Shown one piece after another: positions 7,318 to 28,964 of a DNA stretch of 64,000 nt. Position 1 is the first letter of the stretch. Each line of letters begins with the position of its first letter. Source of the stretch: Syntrophaceae bacterium (lineage in GTDB: Bacteria > Desulfobacterota > Syntrophia > Syntrophales > UBA2185); NCBI GenBank assembly GCA_003153775.1, contig PMBI01000046.1, positions 1 to 64,000 of the forward strand, written 5' to 3'. The notes beneath the pieces were generated by a model, which saw only the letters and a list, made by a program, of their open reading frames with translations, was not told the origin of the DNA and made no database searches. The position numbers and the translations under genes were made by a program.

Positions 7318-7638
7318 ATGCCCCAGATAGAACTGGCAGGAAAAACTTATGAGGTTGACGAAGACGGTTTCCTTCAGGAACTGGACAAGTGGAATAAAGA
7401 ATTCGCCCAGGCCTACGCGAAAAATGAAGGCATCGAGGGACAACTAACCGAAGAACACTGGAAGATCATCAACTATCTCAGGGATTATTTCCAGAAGTTC
7501 GGCATCGCGCCCATGATCCGCAAGCTCGTCAAAGACAACGGCATCGATATGAAGAGGCTCTACGAGCTCTTTCCGACAGGGCCTGCCAAGGGGGCCTGCA
7601 AGCTGGCCGGACTTTCGAAACCCACCGGGTGCGTCTGA
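7318..7638 (+). CDS. dsrC: DsrC sulfur-carrier protein
   Basis: 106 aa. DsrC carries sulfite-derived sulfur from DsrAB as a trisulfide between its two C-terminal cysteines, which DsrMKJOP then reduces. Both are present: C94 and the penultimate C105, eleven residues apart, in the swinging arm GACKLAGLSKPTGCV. So this is true DsrC, not the TusE or RspA type lacking one Cys. A strong ATAGGAGG site lies before ATG 7318. The 83-bp gap upstream contains an AT-rich patch (7271-7297) and could hold an extra promoter, consistent with the usual high dsrC expression, but no clear -35/-10 pair is visible. The stop codon overlaps the next start (ATGA). Confidence 0.96.
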   Translation: MPQIELAGKTYEVDEDGFLQELDKWNKEFAQAYAKNEGIEGQLTEEHWKIINYLRDYFQKFGIAPMIRKLVKDNGIDMKRLYELFPTGPAKGACKLAGLSKPTGCV

Positions 7639-8297
7639 TGACAGGTTCAGAGTTTATTGCAGGTATCTTTCCGTATATAGCCGTCGCACTTTGCCTGCTC
7701 GGGACCGTTTGGCGGTTCGTGCGCTGGCTGTCGCTGCCGCCCCACGTGAAGTGGACCTTATACCCGGTGCCGGAAGGAATCGCGGGCCAGTTGAAATACA
7801 TGTTAAAGGAGATGTTCACCTTCGAGACCCTTTACAAATTCAACCGCCGCCTCTGGTTCGGGTCGTTCTCCATGCACATGGCGATGGCGGGTACTGTCCT
7901 TTTCTTCATCCTGTACCTTGCGGGGTGGTCAACGATTTTTGTCGTACAGTTGTGCCTCCTGGCCCTCGTGATTGCTGCAATCTATATCATCGGATTGCGC
8001 ATCTACGATAAGAACCTAAGGCTGCTTTCAAACTTCGAGGAATTTTTCAATCTGCTGTTTGTGGCAGGTGTGGCTGCTTTAGGATTCGCGGCCTCCGTGC
8101 CACATGTCTCCGTTTCTTTACGCCTGTACTTTCTGGGTTTGATCGAATTCCACCCCAACACGTCAGTCCTCTCCACAGTCCATATTCTGGCCGTGTTTCT
8201 CGGAGGACTTTTCTTGATGTATCTGCCGTTTAGCAAAATGATCCATTACGTCTCCAAGTACTTTACCTATCACCATATCAACTGGCAGAAAAAATGA
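7638..8297 (+). CDS. NarI-type cytochrome b membrane subunit, HmcE/DsrM-like
   Basis: 219 aa from ATG 7638, which overlaps the dsrC stop codon. A GTG nine bases upstream is possible but would lie inside dsrC. About five hydrophobic segments and paired histidines (HMAMAG, HILAVFLGG) fit the respiratory nitrate reductase gamma (heme b) fold. Its length matches HmcE (~225 aa) rather than DsrM (~330 aa), and a true DsrM is encoded separately at 9722. With the next gene it forms a two-protein quinone:thiol oxidoreductase module placed directly behind dsrC. Inferred role: passing menaquinol electrons to the cytoplasmic HdrD-like subunit. Confidence 0.8.
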   Translation: MTGSEFIAGIFPYIAVALCLLGTVWRFVRWLSLPPHVKWTLYPVPEGIAGQLKYMLKEMFTFETLYKFNRRLWFGSFSMHMAMAGTVLFFILYLAGWSTIFVVQLCLLALVIAAIYIIGLRIYDKNLRLLSNFEEFFNLLFVAGVAALGFAASVPHVSVSLRLYFLGLIEFHPNTSVLSTVHILAVFLGGLFLMYLPFSKMIHYVSKYFTYHHINWQKK

Positions 8298-26671: not shown

Positions 26672-28138
26672 TTACTTCGATGCCCCCTTTCTCAGCGTCA
26701 CAAAGAAGCTCATTTCTCCCCTCTTGATGAGAAGCAAAATTGTCCCCTCCCGGGATTCCTTCTTGATTTCGCTCTGAAAATCTTTCATGGAGGAGATCTT
26801 CACTCTGTTGATCTGCAGAATTATATCCTGGACCTTCAGCCCGGCGTCATCGGCTGGACTCCCGTCGCGTATCTGGGAAATTATGACCCCGCCCTTTTCG
26901 GAAAGGCCGAGATGTTTTGCCATATCAGGGGTGATCTCCTGGACTGCCATGCCGTGGTACTCACGCGCCGTGCTTTTGCGGGCTATTTCTTTTTCCTCTT
27001 TCCTTTCACCGACTACAGCAGAGAGTGTCTTTTCCTTCCCGTCACGCAGAATCTTCACCGTTACTTTCTCCCCGACCGTGAGGGCGGCAACGATCCTCAT
27101 CAGTTCGTGAGAATTCTGAATCTTCTTTCCCGCGATTTCGATGATTACGTCGCCTGTTTTTATGCCGGCCTTATCGGCCGGGTCTCCCTCAAAGACATGA
27201 CCCACGAGGGCGCCTTGCACGTCCTTCAGCTTCAAATTTTCGGCGATGTCGTCCGTGATATCCTGTATGGAAATGCCGAGCCAGCCCCGGGTAACGCTGC
27301 CCTTTGTTTTAAGATCGGCGAGAATGCCCTTTGCCGTATTGATCGGTATGGCAAAACCGATCCCGTGCCCCTGGGCAACGATGGCCGTGTTTATGCCGAT
27401 GACTTTGCCTTCCATATTGAAGAGCGGGCCGCCGCTGTTGCCCGGATTTATGGAAGCGTCCGTCTGTATAAAATTATCATATGGTCCTGAACCTATGACG
27501 CGTCCCTTGGCGCTCACAATTCCTGCTGTGACCGTGTGTTCGAGACCGAAAGGGTTGCCTATGGCAAATACCCAGTCGCCTATCCTCAGTTTATCAGAAT
27601 CACCGAACTCAACGACAGGCAGGCTGCCATCCGGTTTTATCTTTATCAGGGCGATATCGGTAGTGGGATCTTTGCCTTTAACTACCGCGTCATATTCCTT
27701 GCCGCCCGCAAGCTTCACCTTTATCTTGTCGGCCTTCTCGACAACATGATTATTCGTAAATATGTAGCCGTCGCTGGAAATAATGAATCCTGAACCAAGA
27801 CTCCGCTGTTTGAATTCCCTTTCCGGCGCCTCCTCAAAAAATCTTCTGAAGGAGTCGTCCCTGCCGAAAAACTTTTGGAAAGGCATATCATTTCCAAAAG
27901 GTGATCCCGCGCGGCCTTTGACGGTAGTCGTTGTGCTGATATTTACCACCGTAGGGCTCCATTTCTCCGCCAGATCGGCAAAGGATACCGGTTCCCTGAC
28001 GACTCTTTCTGCCGGGGCGGCTAAGGCCTTATGTGCGCTCAGTTCCGCAGGCAGGGAGCCGAAGTCTGCAATGAGAAGGAAGGGCAGCAAAAGCAGAAAA
28101 GGAATAAAGATAAAAACCCTCTGTAGCCTAGTATCCAT
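26672..28138 (-). CDS. DegP/HtrA (Do) family periplasmic serine protease
   Basis: 488 aa. An N-terminal signal/anchor (residues ~8-24) precedes a trypsin-like domain with triad H131 (TNNHVV), D161 (TTDIALIKI) and S235 (NPGNSGGPLF). Two PDZ domains follow (about 290-375 and 390-480), the typical Do architecture. It degrades or chaperones misfolded envelope proteins. It is monocistronic on the minus strand, about 110 bp downstream of the selenoprotein gene stop, with which it may or may not be cotranscribed. Nothing unusual in the active site. Confidence 0.92.
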   Translation of the reverse strand: MDTRLQRVFIFIPFLLLLPFLLIADFGSLPAELSAHKALAAPAERVVREPVSFADLAEKWSPTVVNISTTTTVKGRAGSPFGNDMPFQKFFGRDDSFRRFFEEAPEREFKQRSLGSGFIISSDGYIFTNNHVVEKADKIKVKLAGGKEYDAVVKGKDPTTDIALIKIKPDGSLPVVEFGDSDKLRIGDWVFAIGNPFGLEHTVTAGIVSAKGRVIGSGPYDNFIQTDASINPGNSGGPLFNMEGKVIGINTAIVAQGHGIGFAIPINTAKGILADLKTKGSVTRGWLGISIQDITDDIAENLKLKDVQGALVGHVFEGDPADKAGIKTGDVIIEIAGKKIQNSHELMRIVAALTVGEKVTVKILRDGKEKTLSAVVGERKEEKEIARKSTAREYHGMAVQEITPDMAKHLGLSEKGGVIISQIRDGSPADDAGLKVQDIILQINRVKISSMKDFQSEIKKESREGTILLLIKRGEMSFFVTLRKGASK

Positions 28139-28226
28139 ATTAACAGTTGAACCTCCCCGACTAAAAAAATGACAGTTTATAAAGACGCGAATGTCGCGCT
28201 GAAGAGAACTCCTGGCACTGGTGCGC

Positions 28227-28245
28227 GGCCGATTACCTATCGGCC
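28227..28245 (-). promoter_or_regulatory. Putative SECIS hairpin for the second UGA
   Basis: On the minus strand GGCCGAT-AGGTA-ATCGGCC forms a perfect 7-bp stem with a GG-containing 5-nt loop, beginning 11 nt after the UGA at 28256-28258 and just past the TAA stop. Size, distance and loop guanines fit a bacterial SelB-binding SECIS element. A terminator role is unlikely because no T-run follows. Confidence 0.6.
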
Positions 28246-28246
28246 C

Positions 28247-28462
28247 TTACACGCCTCAGCTGCCTCCGTAACCAATTTTTACCTTGCCGCCTTCCAAAAT
28301 GACGGGAACTTGCCTGAGACCGCCGGAAAGCCTGAGCATCTCCTGCAATTGTGCGCTATCAGATTTCACATCTACGTACTTTGCCTTGTTCCCATAGGCC
28401 GACCGGGCCTGGTCTGTAAACGGTCAGCCTCCCTTGCCGTAAATGATGACCTCGTCCGCCAT
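28247..28462 (-). CDS. Glutaredoxin-like selenoprotein with two in-frame UGA codons (UXX-star type)
   Basis: 71 aa if both TGA codons are read as selenocysteine: codon 13 (28424-28426) in YGKGGUPFTDQAR, and codon 69 (28256-28258) in GYGGSUGV followed by TAA. ATG 28462 has GGAGGG 7 bp upstream and lies 16 bp behind the cNMP-protein stop, so the two form an operon. The UPFT motif replaces glutaredoxin CPF/CPY; VPVILEGGKVKIGYGG matches the cis-Pro and C-terminal part of the fold. A C-terminal U-x-x-stop is the hallmark of the UXX-star seleno/Cys-protein family. SECIS-like hairpins follow each TGA. Standard gene calling misses it because of the UGAs. The selenocysteine reading is inferred; a doubly nonsense-mutated pseudogene is the alternative. 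Confidence 0.82.
28397..28429 (-). promoter_or_regulatory. Putative SECIS hairpin for the first UGA
   Basis: On the minus strand the UGA lies within the 5' arm GGCTGACCG (28429-28421), which pairs with CGGTCGGCC (28405-28397) over 9 bp including one GU. An inner GACC-AGGCCC-GGTC hairpin is an alternative with a GG loop about 13 nt from the UGA. A base-paired UGA at the foot of a hairpin is the arrangement known from fdhF. Confidence 0.45.
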
Positions 28463-28478
28463 GACGTTCCCTCCTTCA

Positions 28479-28964
28479 TCATGTCTCCGACAAAACAGAA
28501 AGGCCTCGTTCTCCGACCAGTATGATCTCCGTGTGGGTGAGACGGGCAGCTACTATTTTTGCAATCGCATGCATAAATTTTAATCCAAGGGCCTTATCGT
28601 TGTTTAACACCTCTCTCACTTTCGCGGAATTAAAATTAATCACTTGCGAATCATCGATGCATCTGGCCCCTAAGGTATAGATGTAAGGCTCAACGACTGC
28701 CGACCATCCCATGGCGTCGCCCTTCGTGACAATATCTACGGTCACCTGCATCGGCGGTCTGGTGGGTCCCGCATAGGTATCCATTGTCATGAGAACCTTG
28801 CCTTCTTTCAGAAGGGACAGATTGTCTGCGGGCTCTCCCTTTTTCCATATCTGGACACCGGCCTTGTAAGATGTCTCAGTGGCAATGTCCGCAAATTTCT
28901 TTAACTCTTCATTAGTGAAGCCTTTGAAAAAGGTGTAATTCTTGAGCAGATCTGTTGATACCAC
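28479..28964 (-). CDS. Cyclic-nucleotide-binding-domain protein without DNA-binding domain
   Basis: 161 aa. A single cNMP-binding beta-roll (residues ~12-130: FFKGFTNEELKKFA, NLSLLKEGKVLM, KGDAMGWSAVVEP) is followed by a short helix ending in HTEIILVGERG; there is no C-terminal HTH, unlike Crp/Fnr. The GTG start at 28964 follows AAGGAGG at 9 bp; no ATG is suitably placed. It is probably a stand-alone signalling or scaffold module. It is cotranscribed with the downstream selenoprotein (16-bp gap), suggesting a shared redox or energy-sensing role, which is inference. Confidence 0.8.
   Translation of the reverse strand: MVSTDLLKNYTFFKGFTNEELKKFADIATETSYKAGVQIWKKGEPADNLSLLKEGKVLMTMDTYAGPTRPPMQVTVDIVTKGDAMGWSAVVEPYIYTLGARCIDDSQVINFNSAKVREVLNNDKALGLKFMHAIAKIVAARLTHTEIILVGERGLSVLSET

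Follow-up and report, generated by a model that had tools for sequence, protein, structure and literature searches.

A predicted double-selenocysteine gene of UXX-star family 1 in a Syntrophaceae bacterium, with its second SECIS-like hairpin just beyond the stop codon

The window analysed here (the whole stretch of 64,000 nucleotides) carries on its minus strand a short frame at 28247..28462 that starts with an ATG at 28462, comprises 71 codons, and closes with a TAA, provided that two TGA codons on the way are read as selenocysteine (Sec). The first of these is codon 13 (28424..28426, minus), located in a UPFT motif where glutaredoxins have their active site, and the second is codon 69 (28256..28258, minus), located within a C-terminal U-G-V-stop tail, with the TAA (28247..28249, minus) following 9 nt past it. 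Translation of the minus strand from ATG 28462 then yields a product of 71 residues, MADEVIIYGKGGUPFTDQARSAYGNKAKYVDVKSDSAQLQEMLRLSGGLRQVPVILEGGKVKIGYGGSUGV, and over codons 1-71 the frame is free of TAA and TAG. A ribosome-binding site, AAGGAGGG, is found at 28469..28478 (minus), inside the 16-nt gap behind the upstream gene, and most orthologs also have a GGAG-like site ahead of the start codon. The upstream neighbour (28479..28964, minus) encodes a 161-aa protein with a cyclic-nucleotide-binding domain (PF00027), and the downstream neighbour (26672..28138, minus) a Do/HtrA family serine protease (TIGR02037 at 513 bits).

The first-pass annotation of this DNA had proposed exactly this frame, including the ATG, the TGAs at codons 13 and 69, the terminal TAA, a strong ribosome site, and the 16-nt spacing from the upstream gene, and all of these coordinates and signals proved correct. 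It had also held that ordinary ORF calling misses the gene. Indeed, the standard ORF list (at least 70 aa) contains no minus-strand gene at 28247-28462 and shows only an overlapping plus-strand frame. We took this plus-strand ORF (28169-28525) to be no more than a shadow of the conserved minus frame and discarded it.

The protein matches NF041114.2, “UXX-star selenoprotein family 1”, with 107.8 bits (cut-off 72) over positions 1-70 of the 70 in the profile, and the broader NF041212 with 78.1 bits (cut-off 66), which bears out the earlier UXX-star assignment. It displays the hallmarks of family 1, namely UPFT (UxxT), Sec codons 13 and 69, and the U-G-V-TAA tail. Having the same length, motif, two Sec residues, and C-terminal U-x-x-stop as the rest of the family, it shows no feature that separates it and is typical of the family. 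A related glutaredoxin-like domain, with Sec or Cys in a C-terminal tail, also occurs in UXX-star families 2 and 3 and in the HUGP/GUXX-star fusion (NF041211, NF047338, and NF045501), but the protein scores only 46-50 bits against these models, far under their cut-offs of 97-325. Judged by its predicted translation, 28247-28462 almost certainly encodes a 71-residue, truncated glutaredoxin-fold, double-Sec protein of UXX-star family 1. Such a protein is already catalogued, and the gene is one further member: where a 2026 review (PMC13188914) tabulates prokaryotic selenoproteins, NF041114 appears under the name ‘Distant Grx-like protein 1’, with UxxT and two Sec. Two publications to which the review refers, Haft and Tolstoy 2025 and Haft and Gwadz 2023, may treat the family further. 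The first-pass remark that two Sec in about 71 aa are rare is true in general, but it overstates the rarity here, as double Sec is usual in UXX-star family 1.

To what extent the two Sec positions are retained can be read from the relatives. A search of 119 related genomes with NF041114 gave matches in 80, of which 54 were over the cut-off, and the ortholog set from the same order comprises 39 loci with the family-1 tail, one of them unreadable at site 1. All 39 of these order-level orthologs have TGA at site 2; of the 38 that are readable at site 1, 32 carry TGA there and 6 carry Cys. All 39 also have the U-x-x-stop tail, in which two codons separate the second Sec codon from the stop. Phylum-wide, 75 of the 297 genomes searched contain a family match over the cut-off, and 25 further loci show TGA at both sites (22 loci) or Cys followed by TGA (3 loci), so that site 2 is again TGA throughout (25/25); the pattern used for these loci permitted Cys at site 2 but required the x-x-stop tail, and their tail count is partly by design. 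Taking the order and phylum sets together, both TGAs occur at identical codons in 54 family members. A distant named homolog (L100) carries Cys at both sites, CPYT...GGACGV-stop, and relatives thus bear TGA or Cys at positions 13 and 69, as the original proposal had anticipated. Every aligned member has Thr at +3 from site 1 (column T16, invariant). Because Sec 69 is kept more strictly than Sec 13, the alignment suggests that the Sec of the tail is harder to replace than the one at the active site.

An AlphaFold2 model built with 38 family sequences (mean pLDDT 80, pTM 0.65) predicts the order strand-helix-strand-helix-strand-strand, without the last glutaredoxin helix, the C-terminal tail being its least certain part (pLDDT 63). 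The best Foldseek matches in the PDB are glutaredoxins (top E 0.0018), a likeness by fold class and not a close one, and a profile search also points to a glutaredoxin (2klx, E 2.4e-6). Pfam Glutaredoxin (PF00462) is matched at 29.5 bits; the first description was of a glutaredoxin-like protein with UPFT in place of CPF/CPY. The fold and the position of the nucleophile are held in common with selenoprotein and thiol glutaredoxins (PF00462; cGrx structures 4tr1 and 7c10), but the present protein lacks a Cys at +3, and the last helix of glutaredoxins is replaced by the short GGSUGV tail bearing the second Sec. Of the marks of a classical dithiol glutaredoxin, the CxxC/UxxC motif is absent from the sequence and the C-terminal helix after the fourth strand is absent from the model.

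We propose that Sec 13 would take the place of the nucleophilic Cys of glutaredoxins, with no resolving Cys at +3, and that Sec 69, on the short C-terminal tail that stands in for the last glutaredoxin helix, would act as its partner. Sec 69 could resolve the reaction intermediate, through a diselenide or a selenylsulfide, or it could join Sec 13 in gripping a soft metal or metalloid. That the two Sec residues are redox partners is, in our judgment, somewhat probable. A metal or metalloid chaperone, in which the two Sec would be ligands of a soft metal such as Hg, As, or Cu and no thiol-disulfide exchange takes place, seems less likely: metal-ligand roles for UXX-star Sec have been suggested in the 2026 review (PMC13188914), the UxxT motif offers no resolving Cys, and Sec 2 is invariant whereas Sec 1 can be replaced by Cys. 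Such a chaperone fits less well with a predicted glutaredoxin fold that retains the position of the active-site nucleophile, and no metal-resistance genes were recognised among the recurring neighbours.

We envisage that both UGAs would be decoded as Sec by SelB with Sec-tRNA, the second UGA being served by a hairpin past the stop codon. The published bSECIS model (PMC13188914) calls for a loop of 3-9 nt, a stem of 4-16 bp, a G in the first two loop positions, a spacing of 16-37 nt, and an MFE of at most -7.5. After the first TGA, a candidate hairpin at 28396..28410 (minus), AGGCC-CGGTC-GGCCT, combines a 5-bp stem with a loop CGGTC 18 nt past the TGA. After the second, the hairpin at 28227..28245 (minus), GGCCGAU-AGGUA-AUCGGCC, is located in the 3' UTR just beyond the stop and has a perfect 7-bp stem and a loop AGGTA 17 nt past the TGA, exactly as first described. 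Loop, stem, loop G, spacing, and MFE all lie within the limits of the model at both UGAs, with the reservation that at site 1 the local MFE fold is a different one, and the earlier claim of a hairpin at a SECIS-like distance after each TGA is in line with the model in spacing, loop G, and stem length. At site 1, the extended hairpin alone reaches -9.1, yet in its own sequence it comes to -10.4 against -11.7 kcal/mol for the MFE fold, with a pair probability of about 0.3. The site-2 hairpin is itself the predicted fold (-10.7, pair probabilities 0.94-1.0). An Rfam search returned nothing relevant near the gene, its two weak matches being at chance level.

The orthologs add comparative weight to both hairpins. 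By one fixed criterion, a hairpin is present at site 2 in 34/39 orthologs versus 5.4% of dinucleotide shuffles, and at site 1 in 29/38 orthologs versus 8.4% of shuffles. Position, loop, and stem of the site-1 hairpin are conserved among orthologs. In a strict test, the site-1 hairpin was found in 27 of 32 TGA orthologs versus 2 of 6 Cys orthologs, in a sample that is small and made up of related sequences; this loss is in the direction expected if the hairpin serves Sec insertion. The site-2 stem shows compensatory changes at most positions (e.g., C-G/G-C/T-A, A-T/G-C, and T-A/C-G), where the pair counts were anchored on each sequence's best hairpin and the shuffles were given the presence test without a pair count. 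Since this hairpin lies mostly past the stop and shows compensatory changes, coding offers no explanation, and the comparison indicates that it is selected as RNA.

A GC-rich hairpin directly past an ORF could also be an intrinsic transcription terminator, in which case codon 69 would be a real stop. We regard this as very improbable, as no T run follows the hairpin, its loop keeps a distance of 16-23 nt from the TGA and has a G in its first two positions, the U-G-V-stop peptide after codon 69 is conserved, and the Cys homolog L100 has a sense codon there, followed by G-V-stop. In 31 of 64 members (19/39 at the order level and 12/25 at the phylum level), the frame is terminated by a further TGA, located 9 nt past the Sec TGA. 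The loop of the SECIS-like hairpin, at 16-23 nt from the Sec TGA, is only roughly 7-14 nt away from the stop TGA in these members, which falls short of the minimum of 16 nt set by the model. This geometry is compatible with a discrimination of Sec UGA from stop UGA by spacing. We infer that the second TGA of this close pair is read as a stop because no protein conservation was seen past it, beyond what the hairpin itself imposes. Our literature searches found no report of a Sec UGA and a stop UGA arranged 9 nt apart, which is no proof that the arrangement is unreported.

All components needed for Sec insertion that the first-pass annotation had suggested looking for (selA, selB, selC, and selD) are encoded in the genome, a 3.13-Mb assembly that is 99% complete: SelA (527.5 bits), SelB (388.4 bits, over the cut-off), SelD (383.2 bits), and a tRNA-Sec (76.6 bits versus a gathering score of 47; anticodon TCA according to ARAGORN). 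Co-occurrence of the family with this machinery is uninformative, because SelA is present in 107/119 relatives and does not discriminate. The SelD gene (G000:C84:14667-15596 (+), L048) itself carries an in-frame TGA, in the motif HGAGUACK.

Two readings without Sec can be put aside quickly. A chance frame or decayed pseudogene, with the TGAs as true stops and the similarity as a remnant, would explain why ordinary ORF calling gives no minus-strand gene of at least 70 aa here, but it is refuted by conservation across species, with both TGAs at the same codons in the 54 members, hairpins retained after both, a frame free of TAA and TAG, and a dN/dS of about 0.1 (0.07-0.15 in 6/7 ortholog pairs over codons 1-68, and 0.43 in the remaining one, whose two sequences are very close and show few changes), so that its probability is negligible. 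Equally negligible is a genome-wide reassignment of TGA (e.g., to Trp), for which no support was found and which is refuted by site-1 substitutes in homologs that are Cys and never Trp and by the normal use of TGA as a stop (it closes 13/44 long non-overlapping ORFs of the window as well as the upstream cNMP gene), and is opposed by the tRNA-Sec with its TCA anticodon.

The same genome contains a divergent second UXX-star-like gene at G000:C26:170784-170972 (-), L073, whose type is present in many relatives. Its product reads MEAKIIIYGTDIUPFCNQ...GFAGDISLRGGIPIFGGTUPVKRPLGEE-stop, with two in-frame TGAs (in UPFC and in GGTUPV), and this paralog thus also appears to be a double-Sec protein. It differs from the family-1 protein in having UPFC instead of UPFT, an insert before the second Sec, and a longer tail. 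The L073 type may be a subfamily that has not been separated, because it passes the NF041114 cut-off only across its first 67 residues. As a separate observation, the protein encoded at 7318-7680 (+) of the window ends in ...GLSKPTGCV, followed by two consecutive TGA codons; by this C-terminal motif, it may be a DsrC-type sulfur carrier.

Gene neighbourhoods provide a further angle. A cNMP-binding homolog lies directly upstream on the same strand in 20/39 order-level loci; in 19 of these, roughly 15-41 nt separate the two genes. A Pfam scan of the 28479-28964 protein recognised PF00027 as its sole domain and no DNA-binding domain. The linkage is confined to part of the order, because tblastn does not find the cNMP neighbour in the phylum-wide loci L102-L128. 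The HtrA protease is also close downstream in a number of orthologous loci, and this proximity may simply be shared gene order. Four relatives (L021, L029, L038, and L039) have another neighbour in common, a protein starting MSDVKLRRLDEYRWEVPREGSMRVPGMIYASAKLMKAMGQD, with an apparent likeness to RtcB RNA ligase.

In short, the interest of this locus rests on its decoding geometry and on a new neighbour lead, and not on a new type of gene. It illustrates that a double-Sec gene overlooked by ordinary ORF calling can be correctly read from raw sequence. For UXX-star family 1, the analysis adds facts that can be tested, namely that the Sec UGA and the stop UGA are often 9 nt apart, that most of the second SECIS falls outside the coding sequence, and that the C-terminal Sec is kept more strictly than the active-site Sec. 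For this order, the conserved cNMP-binding neighbour is a first clue to function. Tentatively, and with somewhat less than even confidence, we suggest that the family may offer a natural experiment on how a Sec UGA is told from a stop UGA, and that its cNMP linkage in part of the order hints at second-messenger control over a function in redox or metal chemistry.
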